Position numbers and translations under genes: made by a program. From a virus, in the IMG/VR virus record IMGVR_UViG_3300038466_000043, positions 1 to 21,177 of that record: a stretch of 21,177 nt of DNA; one strand, written 5' to 3'. Shown in pieces: positions 11,645 through 19,148 of the stretch; positions within the stretch are counted from its first letter, which is position 1; each line of letters opens with the position of its first letter. Below the pieces are notes generated by a model, which searched no databases, was not told where the DNA came from, and saw only the letters and a list, made by a program, of their open reading frames with translations.

Positions 11645-12110
11645 TCGGGAGATAGACTGGTTGCGCAAAGCCATCGGCAAGGGCCTGTCCGGGCTGGTGG
11701 TGTTGCACCTGGACGGCGGCCCCTCCGCCGAAACCGTACAACACACCGCCGGCGTCTGGTACCACGTCATGAAAAGCTGGCCCATCGTCTGGCACGAAGA
11801 ACTGGACCGGCCCCGGCTGCGGGTGGCCTTTACCGCCCTGGCCAGCCAAGCCAACCGCTGGCCGGCGCCGGCGGACCTGCGCAAACTGCTACCGTCCCGC
11901 GCCTATCCGCAATCGGCGCTGGCCGAACCGGAATACCCGCTGGAAAAGCAAAAACTCAACTTGATAGCGATGAAACAAGTACAGATGCTGGCAGACAAGC
12001 GGGCGGCGCTGCTGCGCAAGCTGGACGGCGCCGATCAGTTGAAAGCGGCCTATCTGCGAGACGCCATCGCCAACATCGAACAACAGCAACGGGAGGTATA
12101 CCAATCATGA
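11637..12110 (+). CDS. Hypothetical phage protein (157 aa), possible replication accessory
   Basis: Start ATG 11637 has GGAGG about nine bases upstream and overlaps the previous stop region; an earlier in-frame start at 11586 lies inside the neighbour and is less likely. Visible features are a Trp-rich middle (VWYHVMKSWPIVWHEELDRP), the stretch FTALASQANRWPAPADLRKL, and a long C-terminal helix (KRAALLRKLDGADQLKAAYL to IEQQQREVY). The pattern F..L......WP.P.DL...LP is also seen in helicase-loader-like phage proteins; this is a weak resemblance. The stop overlaps the mor-like start by 4 bases. Confidence 0.68.
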   Translation: MVDREIDWLRKAIGKGLSGLVVLHLDGGPSAETVQHTAGVWYHVMKSWPIVWHEELDRPRLRVAFTALASQANRWPAPADLRKLLPSRAYPQSALAEPEYPLEKQKLNLIAMKQVQMLADKRAALLRKLDGADQLKAAYLRDAIANIEQQQREVYQS

Positions 12111-12508
12111 CCGACACCGCCCACCTGCCCACCCAATACCTGCCGGAGGGCCTGCGCCGCATCGCCACCTATTGCGGTTGGGATGTCATGTGGGCGATAT
12201 GGGAAGAAGCCGCCGGCACCCGCATTCAGGTGCCCAAAGTGGCGGCCAACGACCATTGGATCGTTGCCAAGCTGGGCGCGCTAAAGGCACAAACCTTTTG
12301 CGAGGTATTCGGCGGCGAAACCCTGGTCATCAACAAAGGCGACGCCGCCAAAAGGGCTGTTCGCGACATGGCCATCCGCGCCGAACGCGCGGCCGGCGTG
12401 GATATGAAAATACTCTGCCGGCGTTACAACCTGACCTACCGGCAAATCCAAAGCATTACACGGGAAGACCCGCACGGGGCCAGCCGGAATTTTGATTTAT
12501 TCGATTGA
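12107..12508 (+). CDS. mor: Mor-family transcription activator
   Basis: 133 residues, like Mu Mor (129). The dimerisation part runs from the N-terminus through IQVPKVAANDHWIVAKLGAL and FGGETLVINKGDAAKRAVRD. The C-terminal HTH is GVDMKILCRRYNLTYRQIQS. Mor/C proteins bind a dyad just upstream of a weak -10 and activate middle or late phage promoters that lack a -35. The gene is at the end of the early operon, as in Mu. Which promoter it serves is not proven; the 14372-14506 gap before the lysis genes is the best candidate in this window. Confidence 0.9.
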   Translation: MTDTAHLPTQYLPEGLRRIATYCGWDVMWAIWEEAAGTRIQVPKVAANDHWIVAKLGALKAQTFCEVFGGETLVINKGDAAKRAVRDMAIRAERAAGVDMKILCRRYNLTYRQIQSITREDPHGASRNFDLFD

Positions 12509-14015: not shown

Positions 14016-14044
14016 AAAAAGGCCGGGTTTCCCCGGCCTTTTTT
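14016..14044. terminator. Bidirectional intrinsic terminator
   Basis: GGCCGGG (14021-14027) pairs with CCCGGCC (14032-14038) around TTTC. Five A residues precede it and six T residues follow, extending the stem and giving a U-run in either direction. It ends the leftward exported-protein gene, whose stop codon lies 7 bp away, and would also stop rightward read-through before the lysis genes. Confidence 0.88.
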
Positions 14045-14050
14045 GTGTGT

Positions 14051-14371
14051 TTATCCGATGTGCGGATCGTCTTTGACATCGTAGCCCGTCAAGCCGTTAT
14101 CCATCCGCTTAGTGATAAAACCCACCGCTTGCGCCGTGCGCATAAGGGCGACGATCTGTCGAGTGCGGAACAGGTTTGCGCGTTTAGCGGCGGTGATGTG
14201 CGGCGTGGCAAGACAGGCCGTCTTATTCATCGATTGGGTTTTGCCGATATCGGCATAGTGTGCGACTGGCGGGCCGGTGCTGGCCGATGCGGTGGGCGCG
14301 TAGAGCATCGCCGCAAACATCGTCACCAGTAGCGCCATAACACAGCGTGCTAGAAATGAGAGTTTTTTCAT
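14051..14371 (-). CDS. Small exported protein of unknown function (106 aa)
   Basis: The N-terminus is a classic Sec signal peptide: MKKLSFLARC, hydrophobic core VMALLVTMFAAMLY, and a probable cleavage after APTASA. The mature part (about 75 residues) is basic with no lipobox and only one Cys; it reads HITAAKRANLFRTRQIVALM and so on. I recognise no family. GAGG lies before ATG 14371 and a bidirectional terminator follows. It lies on the strand opposite to the lysis genes and just before them, so it is a candidate lysogenic-conversion gene acting in the periplasm or envelope, for example in superinfection exclusion. That role is only a suggestion. Confidence 0.7.
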   Translation of the reverse strand: MKKLSFLARCVMALLVTMFAAMLYAPTASASTGPPVAHYADIGKTQSMNKTACLATPHITAAKRANLFRTRQIVALMRTAQAVGFITKRMDNGLTGYDVKDDPHIG

Positions 14372-14387
14372 GTTAACCTCGAATTAA

Positions 14388-14434
14388 GGGTTTGCCGTAA
14401 GGGCGCGGCCATTACACAGCGCCCGGCAAAACCC
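14388..14434. other. Long imperfect hairpin in the divergent lysis/exported-protein spacer
   Basis: GGGTTTGCCG (14388-14397) pairs with CGGCAAAACCC (14424-14434) with one bulged A, and inside it GGGCGC (14401-14406) can pair with GCGCCC (14419-14424; the base at 14424 can serve only one stem). It lacks a T-run on either side. It sits in the 5' leader of the leftward exported-protein gene and upstream of the lysis genes, so it may be a protein-binding dyad or a leader structure. Confidence 0.45.
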
Positions 14435-14480
14435 TGCCCCGCGAAGCCCTTCGCATCCCCCGAATCCACCTGCAACGATA

Positions 14481-14506
14481 GACTGTCTCAAACCCTGGAG
14501 ACAGTC
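14481..14506 (+). promoter_or_regulatory. Shine-Dalgarno-sequestering hairpin of the endolysin gene
   Basis: GACTGTCTC (14481-14489) and GAGACAGTC (14498-14506) form a perfect 9-bp stem with loop AAACCCTG. The only ribosome-binding sequence (GGAG, 14497-14500) lies in the right arm, and the ATG (14507) follows immediately. A message containing both arms should translate poorly. A -10-like TAGACT (14479-14484) would start transcription near 14491, in the loop, producing a message without the left arm. Confidence 0.75.
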
Positions 14507-15049
14507 ATGCTTACCTGTTCCGATACCGGAATCAATTTAATCAAAACCCACGAGGGCGTAAGGCTCACAGCATACCTATGCCCCGCCAACCGCTTGACCA
14601 TCGGTTACGGCCACGTGCTGTTGCCCAAGTGGGATTACGGTTTGTTCAGGCGTATCAGCGCCGCCGAATTGGCCCGACTGGTGGCGGAATGCCAAGCCCG
14701 CCGCGTCGTTACGCACGAAGCGCAAGTGGTGCTGAAGATTCGCCAGGATCAAGCCGATGCCTTGCTGGCCAAGGATGTGCAACAGATAAGCCATTTCCTG
14801 AATTCCGTCTTGCCGCCGCTGAATCAACACCAGTTCGACGCGCTGGTGTCGTTTGTGTTCAACATCGGCCAGGGCCAGTTCGCCACCTCAACCTTGCGCA
14901 AAAAGCTGCAATTCGGCGATATGGCCGGCGCCGCCAAGGAGTTCGACCGTTGGGTAAAAGCCACCGATAAACAAGGCGAAAAAGTCACCCTGCCCGGTTT
15001 AGTCACCCGCCGCGCCGCCGAGCGCGCGTTATTTGAACAAGAGGCTTAA
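14507..15049 (+). CDS. GH24 phage endolysin (lysozyme)
   Basis: 180 residues of the T4/P22-type lysozyme family, cleaving the N-acetylmuramic acid to N-acetylglucosamine bond of peptidoglycan. The catalytic pattern E-8aa-D/C-5aa-T is present as E16, C25 and T31 (HEGVRLTAY, LCPANRLTIGYGH). QHQFDALVSFVFNIG and the ending LVTRRAAERALF are family hallmarks. There is no signal peptide or signal-anchor segment, so release to the periplasm should depend on the holin-like protein encoded downstream. It is the first gene of the lysis cassette and its ribosome-binding site is buried in a perfect hairpin. Confidence 0.93.
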   Translation: MLTCSDTGINLIKTHEGVRLTAYLCPANRLTIGYGHVLLPKWDYGLFRRISAAELARLVAECQARRVVTHEAQVVLKIRQDQADALLAKDVQQISHFLNSVLPPLNQHQFDALVSFVFNIGQGQFATSTLRKKLQFGDMAGAAKEFDRWVKATDKQGEKVTLPGLVTRRAAERALFEQEA

Positions 15050-17704: not shown

Positions 17705-19148
17705 AAAAACGCGCGAATTTTTAGGCGATGTCTCAGACCTGGCAGAAGAGGTTGCCCGCGAGGTGGCCGGCGAAGAGTCCACGCAAGCCCTAGATTTTCG
17801 CGACTGGTGTCATGAGGCAAGCCCGGAGTTTCGATGGGACTGGCCGCACTTGGCCTACATTCGCGCCAGACTTGAGCCTATTACCGAAATGCTTGAGCAA
17901 TCCCTGAAAGGGGTTGTATCCGAGCACAAGCCCCGGCATCTAATGCTGTCGGTGCCGCCCCGCCACGGTAAATCCGAACAGGTTACAGTGCGTTATCCCG
18001 CCTATTTGATGGAGCGCTTTCCAACGCTACGCACCATCGTTGGCGCATACAACGCGGCATTGGCCCTGAAATTTAGCCGCAAAACCCGCCGCATTGCCGC
18101 CCAACGGATGGCATTATCCAAGGACGCCAATACTACCGGCGAATGGGAGACAACAGAAGGCGGCGGCTTGCGCGCAGTCGGTGCCGGTGGCGGTGTCACC
18201 GGTCACGGTGCCAACCTGATCATCATCGACGACCCGGTAAAATCCCGCGAGGAAGCGGAGTCTGAAACCTACCGCGAGAAGATTTGGGACTGGTTTACCG
18301 ACGACATCTTTACCCGGCTGGAGCCGGGTGGCGTGATGATCATCATCATGACGCGCTGGCATGAAGATGATCTGGTAGGCCGCATTCAGAAAAGCGACTT
18401 TGCCGACGACTTCGAGGTTGTCAATCTGGCCGCCGAAGCCGAATACGGTGATCCGCTTGGCCGTCCTGTCGGTGCCGCCTTGTGTCCGGATCGATTCAAC
18501 GAAACCGCCCTGGCCAAGCTGCGCACGATCCTGGGCCGTAGTTATTACTCGCTATACCAAGGCCGGCCGGCGGCGGTGGACGGCGACATCATCAATATCA
18601 CCTGGTTTAAACGCTACCGGTATAAACCGGCATTTCAGCGCATCGTACAAAGCTGGGATACGGCGCAAAAAGCCGCCAAAAAGAACGATTACAACGTCTG
18701 CACCACCTGGGGCGAGAGCGCAGAAGGCGACAGTTATTTGCTGGATGTTTACCGCGAAAAGCTGGAGTACCCAAAGCTCAAACGCGCGGTTATCGAGATG
18801 AAGAAGCGCTGGGCACCGAGCGCGATATTGATCGAAGACAAGGGCCACGGCACCGCGCTGGGCCAGGAACTGAAACAGTTACCCGGCTATAGCGTGATCA
18901 TGATCGAGCCGGAAGGCGACAAAGTGACCCGGATGAGCGTCGAATCGTCGGCGCTGGAATCGGGCCGCGTCTGGGTGCCGGAGGAGAACATGGTGCCCTG
19001 GCTGGCCGAGTTTGAAAACGAATGTACCAATTTCCCCGCCGTCAAACACGACGACCAGGTCGACTCGATGAGTCAATACCTATTCTGGAACCGTAACCCT
19101 AACAAGAAAAAAGCGGATTACCGCAGCTGGAGCTTGCCATGGCTATAG
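17691..19148 (+). CDS. Terminase large subunit
   Basis: 485 residues. The ATPase half has a Walker A-like loop PPRHGKS (P89-S95) and Walker B LIIIDDP (acidic D180, D181), with MTRWHEDDLVGRI as the coupling region. The nuclease half shows SWDTAQK (D323), ILIEDKGHGTALGQEL and HDDQVDSMSQYLF (D454, D455, D458), the usual acidic metal ligands. It is the TIGR01630-type terminase C-terminus rather than the Mu gp28 type. The protein cuts DNA and pumps it into the procapsid. Mu-like phages package headful from the integrated element; whether this terminase does so is not shown. No strong Shine-Dalgarno; it overlaps the gp27-like gene by 14 bases and the portal gene by 10. Confidence 0.92.
   Translation: MLNPKKTREFLGDVSDLAEEVAREVAGEESTQALDFRDWCHEASPEFRWDWPHLAYIRARLEPITEMLEQSLKGVVSEHKPRHLMLSVPPRHGKSEQVTVRYPAYLMERFPTLRTIVGAYNAALALKFSRKTRRIAAQRMALSKDANTTGEWETTEGGGLRAVGAGGGVTGHGANLIIIDDPVKSREEAESETYREKIWDWFTDDIFTRLEPGGVMIIIMTRWHEDDLVGRIQKSDFADDFEVVNLAAEAEYGDPLGRPVGAALCPDRFNETALAKLRTILGRSYYSLYQGRPAAVDGDIINITWFKRYRYKPAFQRIVQSWDTAQKAAKKNDYNVCTTWGESAEGDSYLLDVYREKLEYPKLKRAVIEMKKRWAPSAILIEDKGHGTALGQELKQLPGYSVIMIEPEGDKVTRMSVESSALESGRVWVPEENMVPWLAEFENECTNFPAVKHDDQVDSMSQYLFWNRNPNKKKADYRSWSLPWL

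Follow-up and report, generated by a model that had tools for sequence, protein, structure and literature searches.

In this Mu-like phage, the hairpin that encloses the start of the lysozyme gene lys likely acts as a translational lock that forms part of a Mor-activated late promoter, in a manner resembling gene e of phage T4. The palindrome of the presumed activator site, the -10 hexamer, their fixed spacing, the inverted repeats and the locus-specific complementarity of their arms can be read directly from the sequence; translational silencing and a role in timing are the functions that the hairpin would presumably provide. An RNA initiated at any upstream start would contain both arms of the hairpin, so that its Shine-Dalgarno sequence would be paired and little or no lysozyme would be produced. 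Upon binding of a Mor-type activator to the palindrome at 14440-14455, RNA polymerase would start at approximately 14491, within the loop of the hairpin; the left arm, which lies upstream of this start, would thus be missing from the transcript, leaving the 16-nt leader open and the lysozyme translated. Related phages would use the same layout with differing arms at most of their activator-driven late operons, and the leaderless promoters of protease genes may get to a similar result by starting the RNA one base before the ATG. Recurring at most of the related late promoters, the arrangement gives the impression of a safety lock that the whole family uses on its late genes.

Promoter and hairpin at the lysozyme start

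The window, that is the whole stretch of 21,177 nucleotides of viral DNA that was analysed (IMG/VR record IMGVR_UViG_3300038466_000043), contains the following features around lys:

12107..12508, plus strand: gene for a late transcriptional activator of the Mor family, presumed to act on the lys promoter (Pfam PF08765 Mor, E 3.7e-9; PHROG 836 late transcriptional activator, E 8.5e-24)
14016..14043, plus strand: strong terminator-like hairpin upstream of lys, a 12-bp stem with a T run, which would limit read-through from the early operon
14440..14455, plus strand: presumed activator site, the 16-bp element CGCGAAGCCCTTCGCA, at fixed spacing in relatives and present as the sole exact copy in the window
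14479..14484, plus strand: -10 hexamer TAGACT, with the same spacing and similar hexamers in relatives
14481-14489, plus strand: left stem arm GACTGTCTC, approximately -10 to -2, predicted to be absent from promoter-made RNA
14490-14497, plus strand: hairpin loop AAACCCTG
14491, plus strand: transcription start as predicted (+/-2), within the hairpin loop and counted as 12 bases past the first T of the -10
14498-14506, plus strand: right stem arm GAGACAGTC, overlapping the Shine-Dalgarno sequence and ending at the ATG
14507..15049, plus strand: lysozyme (endolysin) gene of 180 aa, the first of the lysis region (PF00959 Phage_lysozyme, E 1.3e-36; PHROG 7 endolysin)

The palindrome GCGAAGCCCTTCGC (14441-14454) is situated inside the 16-bp element and is followed, exactly 24 bp later, by TAGACT at 14479. 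As the start is taken 12 bases past the first T of the -10, the centre of the palindrome (14447.5) comes to lie at -43.5 from the implied start, so that the locus matches the layout of Mor- and C-activated promoters, in which a dyad activator site near -43.5 substitutes for the -35 and precedes the -10. If activated by Mor, the lys promoter needs no -35. Equally, the element encodes a Mor-family activator of its own (12107-12508), and a Mor-family gene is also present in most of the related contigs described below in which the region is covered. In phage Mu, the Mor element of the promoter Pm comprises 16 bp, is centred at -43.5 and is bound by a Mor dimer (PMC4390567), and the -10 of the Mu lys promoter also reads TAGACT (PMC4461284, Table 1). 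The hexamer, termed -10-like in the preliminary description, is very probably a real -10, as judged from the same 24-bp spacing from the palindrome, with a Mor-type geometry, in two related lysozyme loci, L085 (TACACT) and L089 (TAGACT). Binding of Mor to the lys palindrome is presumed from this layout; equally, the proposal that RNA starts in the loop, and that late RNA consequently lacks the left arm, is upheld by the arrangement of the elements, with the exact start predicted at approximately 14491. On the opposite side of the palindrome, TGTAAT is found on the minus strand at 14411-14416 with the same 24-bp spacing, facing the opposing gene at 14051-14371; this may possibly be a divergent promoter, at which no stem hiding a Shine-Dalgarno sequence is evident.

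The stem described at the ribosome-binding site of the lysozyme gene is indeed perfect over 9 bp (14481-14489 paired with 14498-14506), encloses an 8-base loop (14490-14497) and abuts the ATG at 14507; the plus strand of 14478-14509 reads ATAGACTGTCTCAAACCCTGGAGACAGTCATG. The GGAG Shine-Dalgarno sequence (14497-14500) is enclosed with the refinement that its first G is the last base of the loop, whereas the remaining three bases belong to the stem. The 31-nt hairpin RNA has a predicted energy of -15.3 kcal/mol (z = -5.1; 0 of 200 shuffles as good), and the region from -30 to +3 of lys is the most folded of the 37 gene starts in the window, with -15.3 compared to a mean of -4.2 (sd 1.8) and to -8.6 for the second most folded start. 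Perfect 9-bp hairpins occur at 13 right-arm positions in the 21 kb, which correspond to a handful of places, the remaining ones being near 1316-1360, 8854 and 12826 and at the terminator 14016-14043, so that stem length alone is not decisive; the lys hairpin is the only 9-bp hairpin in the window seen to abut a start codon and overlap its ribosome-binding site. The lys stem is thus unusual, and the strong evidence against chance is that of the related promoters. No Rfam family matched 14479-14509 with a gathering score, the only matches being sub-threshold ones to sRNAs on the terminator. A terminator function of the lys hairpin was considered and rejected, since no T run follows the stem.

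The closest relative, L085, encodes a lysozyme with 81-82% identity, and its sequence upstream of lys, CCCCGCGAACCCCTTCGCATCCC, is almost the same as CCCCGCGAAGCCCTTCGCATCCC in the window; TACACT is positioned exactly 24 bp past the palindrome GCGAA....TTCGC, where the window has TAGACT. At the L089 locus (lysozyme of 53-55% identity), GCGAAACGCTTCGC is equally separated by 24 bp from TAGACT, and the arms GACTGTTTCC/GGAGGCAGTC associate with two G-U pairs. The lysozyme genes of L134 and L002 are preceded by the arms CTCTGTGC/GCGCAGAG and CTATCGCTCA/TGAGCGATAG, respectively, with an activator site in L002 that is not the same as that of the window. Compensatory changes in related prophages, suggested beforehand as a check, were looked for and encountered as stems that are kept with arms that are changed, in L089 via G-U pairs and in L085, L134 and L002 as different arms. 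A search of the viral contigs for the exact lys stem gave no match elsewhere because the arms are locus-specific. In bacterial genomes, the relatives of the lysozyme (at most 36% identity) were discarded as too distant for a comparison of leaders.

Inverted repeats at related late promoters

Sibling promoters were sought by scanning IMG/VR with GCGAANNNCTTCGCAT-N22-TANNNT, a pattern without hairpin information, by which many contigs were recovered; a looser promoter pattern added a few loci and a relaxed search of the fetched contigs one more. Loci were kept if they precede a gene and are located in a contig with Mu-like genes or are of the same gene families, a selection made by hand and blind to pairing, with the hairpin idea already in mind. 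The resulting set comprises 14 promoters with a leader and four with a predicted start one base before the ATG. The first genes encode lysozymes, another endolysin family, a holin, scaffolding proteins and several proteins of unknown family, and at the four promoters of the leaderless type the first gene is a head protease of the Mu gpI type:

L136 3537 reverse; L132 2384 reverse; L150 12866; L177 3928 reverse: leaderless-type protease promoters, at which RNA is predicted to begin one base ahead of the ATG

These four probably make leaderless messages, as suggested by the position of the predicted start. Among the Mor relatives KS10 and B23, which were read by eye, B23 has a palindrome and a -10 giving a would-be leaderless message. 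Most of the extra matches of the looser scan are inside unrelated genes and were used as a negative control. No match to the promoter pattern was found in 369 bacterial genomes from the class of Acinetobacter, and a scan for the bare 16-bp palindrome gave new loci, none with a matching -10, so that the palindrome alone is not diagnostic. At 8807-8880 of L119, one palindrome is apparently shared by two divergent late promoters, each with its own -10 at 24 bp, one serving the endolysin and the other a small unknown gene.

All 14 leader promoters possess an inverted repeat of their own, starting in the -10/start region and reaching into the leader; the arms mostly differ in sequence, and a few of the repeats are weak. 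L138 (ACTGTCTCCC/GGGAGACAGT) and L118 (ACACTCTC/GAGAGTGT) differ in their arms despite belonging to one gene family; further arms are ATTTCCTC/GAGGAAAT in L119 and TATCCTGT/ACAGGATA in L130, and CCTGTGC/GCACAGG of L128 compares with CCTGTGC/GTACAGG of L134_b. Even within a single record, two promoters can carry unrelated arms, namely ATTTCCTC/GAGGAAAT and TCTAGA/TCTGGA in G376, and CTCTGTGC/GCGCAGAG and CCTGTGC/GTACAGG in G377. The repeats of L119_endo and L132_a are weak or beside the Shine-Dalgarno sequence, and L334, a relative of L119_endo, has no convincing stem. The timing device that the preliminary description envisaged for lysis would accordingly not be special to lysis, as the arrangement is also found at genes for scaffold and holin, in the tail region and at other late genes. 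In L337 (record G004), a terminator-like hairpin is present within the loop between the repeat arms of the late leader.

The duplex energy between -14..+1 and +4..start was computed for own arms and for arms swapped across loci. Own arms pair with a mean of -12.7 kcal/mol versus -7.1 (sd 3.1) kcal/mol for swapped arms, and 0 of 200,000 permutations of the 14 leaders were as good, a count that is not an exact probability as the loci are not fully independent. As swapped arms retain any general bias of -10 and Shine-Dalgarno sequences, the excess represents locus-specific complementarity. The outcome was again 0 of 200,000 with the contiguous Watson-Crick length as the measure, with G-U pairs included, without the window and with the extended set of 18, and restriction to a single locus from each gene family gave 2 of 200,000 permutations as good. 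Upstream control segments behaved differently, with 26% (-44..-29) and 70% (-30..-15) of permutations as good. In an offset scan, pairing amounted to approximately -5 at -30..-19 and was best at -12..-1 (-11.6), with a smaller bump of -8.2 near -57..-46 that overlaps the activator palindrome. The 35 chance matches of the same patterns had a mean of -6.2 and no repeat (p 3e-6).

Predicted effect on translation and alternative readings

Opening of the translation start is predicted to cost, on average, 13.2 kcal/mol for RNA beginning at -50, 12.6 for RNA beginning at -16 and 5.8 for RNA beginning at +1; at lys of the window, 14.8 from -50 compares with 2.5 kcal/mol in the promoter-made RNA. Since RNA from -16 behaves like RNA from -50, the lock would consist in the arm at the promoter and not in distant sequence. 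In L119_p and L173, the predicted opening cost is no lower in the promoter-made RNA, and in L119_endo it drops little. The opening cost was used in place of the Shine-Dalgarno pairing probability, which was uninformative because the chosen 9-nt interval includes loop bases. In the window, the genes upstream of lys are in the opposite direction and the terminator 14016-14043 is located before lys, whereas in L085 lys follows directly after the HU gene of the early side; the source of read-through, and hence the benefit of the lock, is therefore less obvious here than in L085.

Pairing at the RNA level could also serve another purpose than a lock opened by the promoter, such as the protection or processing of read-through RNA or a translation that is modulated by a protein or by temperature, since a stem that covers a start codon could bind a protein or sense temperature. 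Translation of the Mu gene mom is controlled by Com, which speaks for such a role, and Com is annotated as a translational activator. This reading is nevertheless unlikely, as the left arm is upstream of the predicted start in nearly all siblings, so that promoter-made RNA would miss the element, and as neither the sequence of the stem nor the loop is conserved. Rather improbable is an operator at the DNA level, at which a dimeric protein bound to both arms would repress or help the promoter: the perfect dyad over the -10 and the start is at a usual place for a repressor site, yet the arms vary between promoters, even within the records G376 and G377, loop lengths are widely variable, the right arm tracks the Shine-Dalgarno sequence, and the G-U pairs of L089, L134_b and L085 preserve RNA pairing and not DNA symmetry. 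We consider it very unlikely that the true start is upstream of the left arm, in which case all lys RNA would carry the hairpin and the lysozyme would simply be weakly translated; sigma-70 start sites do vary by a few bases, but the -10 is conserved at a fixed spacing from the activator site and a start before 14481 needs another promoter, for which the pattern scan gave no candidate near 14481 on this strand. It is hardly credible that the pairing is a by-product of -10/start regions resembling an anti-Shine-Dalgarno sequence near any gene start, because, although -10 regions ending in CT together with CTCC-like starts do pair somewhat with a Shine-Dalgarno sequence (the mean of -7.1 kcal/mol after swapping), this bias is kept upon swapping and still none of the 200,000 permutations reaches the observed pairing, and chance sites are without the repeat.

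Known systems and the wider meaning of the proposed lock

The translational lock proposed here has its closest precedent in phage T4, where the starts of gene e (lysozyme), soc, 49 and I-TevI are hidden in a hairpin of the early read-through RNA and freed in the late RNA (PMC3014915). Like at gene e, a stem would hide the Shine-Dalgarno sequence and/or the start codon in longer RNAs, with the late promoter over the left arm and with lysozyme among the locked genes: at lys, sequestration in the longer RNA is predicted (-15.3 kcal/mol), and the late promoter appears to start inside the structure at approximately 14491, with the left arm missing. T4 differs in that it relies on a late sigma factor of its own and on TATAAATA promoters, at few genes, whereas the system predicted here combines a host-type -10 and an activator site of the Mor type, has arms reaching over the -10 itself and recurs at most of the late operons found in the group.

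Among Mu promoters, Pm shares the 5-bp inverted repeats in a 16-bp dyad at -43.5, the -10 without a -35 and the Mor-family activator (PMC4390567), but has another site sequence with half sites 6 bp apart, compared to 4 bp between GCGAA and TTCGC here; furthermore, late genes appear to be driven directly from the site found here, and Pm has no described hairpin. The C-activated Plys equally drives a lysozyme from a TAGACT -10 (PMC4461284), but is without such a repeat, and its C site is unlike the GCGAA palindrome. The C-activated PI possesses a repeat, CTGACTGCTC/GAGCAGCAG, between the start region and the ribosome-binding site of gene I, with the difference that the left arm may be partly transcribed:

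AF083977, about 18020-18056: inverted repeat of Mu PI

In a diverged Mu prophage of E. coli SE11, the PI-type repeat has lost one inner pair and gained outer pairs, and in Pseudoalteromonas phage HS6 (L344, 194-223) the arms CTGAGCACAG/CTGTGCTCAG form a perfect 10-bp inverted repeat that precedes the ATG of the protease gene by two bases. The repeats of Mu PI, SE11 and HS6 came to light once the pattern had been recognised and are counted as leads.

On balance it seems probable that in a clade of Mu-like phages, possibly including Mu with its PI promoter, the -10/start region doubles as an anti-Shine-Dalgarno arm, so that only activator-made RNA would be translated, with protease promoters being leaderless and with the composite element keeping its complementarity as the sequence drifts. 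The principle is known from T4, and its variant in Mu-like phages is apparently new within the open-access literature searched, in which no report of such a lock in Mu-like phages was found. In T4, a stem that the late promoter leaves out silences the read-through RNA of a few late genes; the comparative evidence suggests the same principle in an unrelated transcription system, and there at the majority of the late operons in a group of transposable phages. This would explain how temperate phages that transpose within transcribed host DNA could silence lysis and structural genes despite leaky read-through. As Mu PI apparently carries a version, the idea would be directly testable in the laboratory phage Mu. 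The design would be compact, with a promoter and a translational lock in approximately 30 bp, and it advises caution in that a sequence constraint over a -10 region may be a constraint on RNA. Elsewhere in the window, at 1297-1369, several copies of CGTTCAAGTT/AACTTGAACG are located between a repressor-like and a ner-like gene and are probably early operators.
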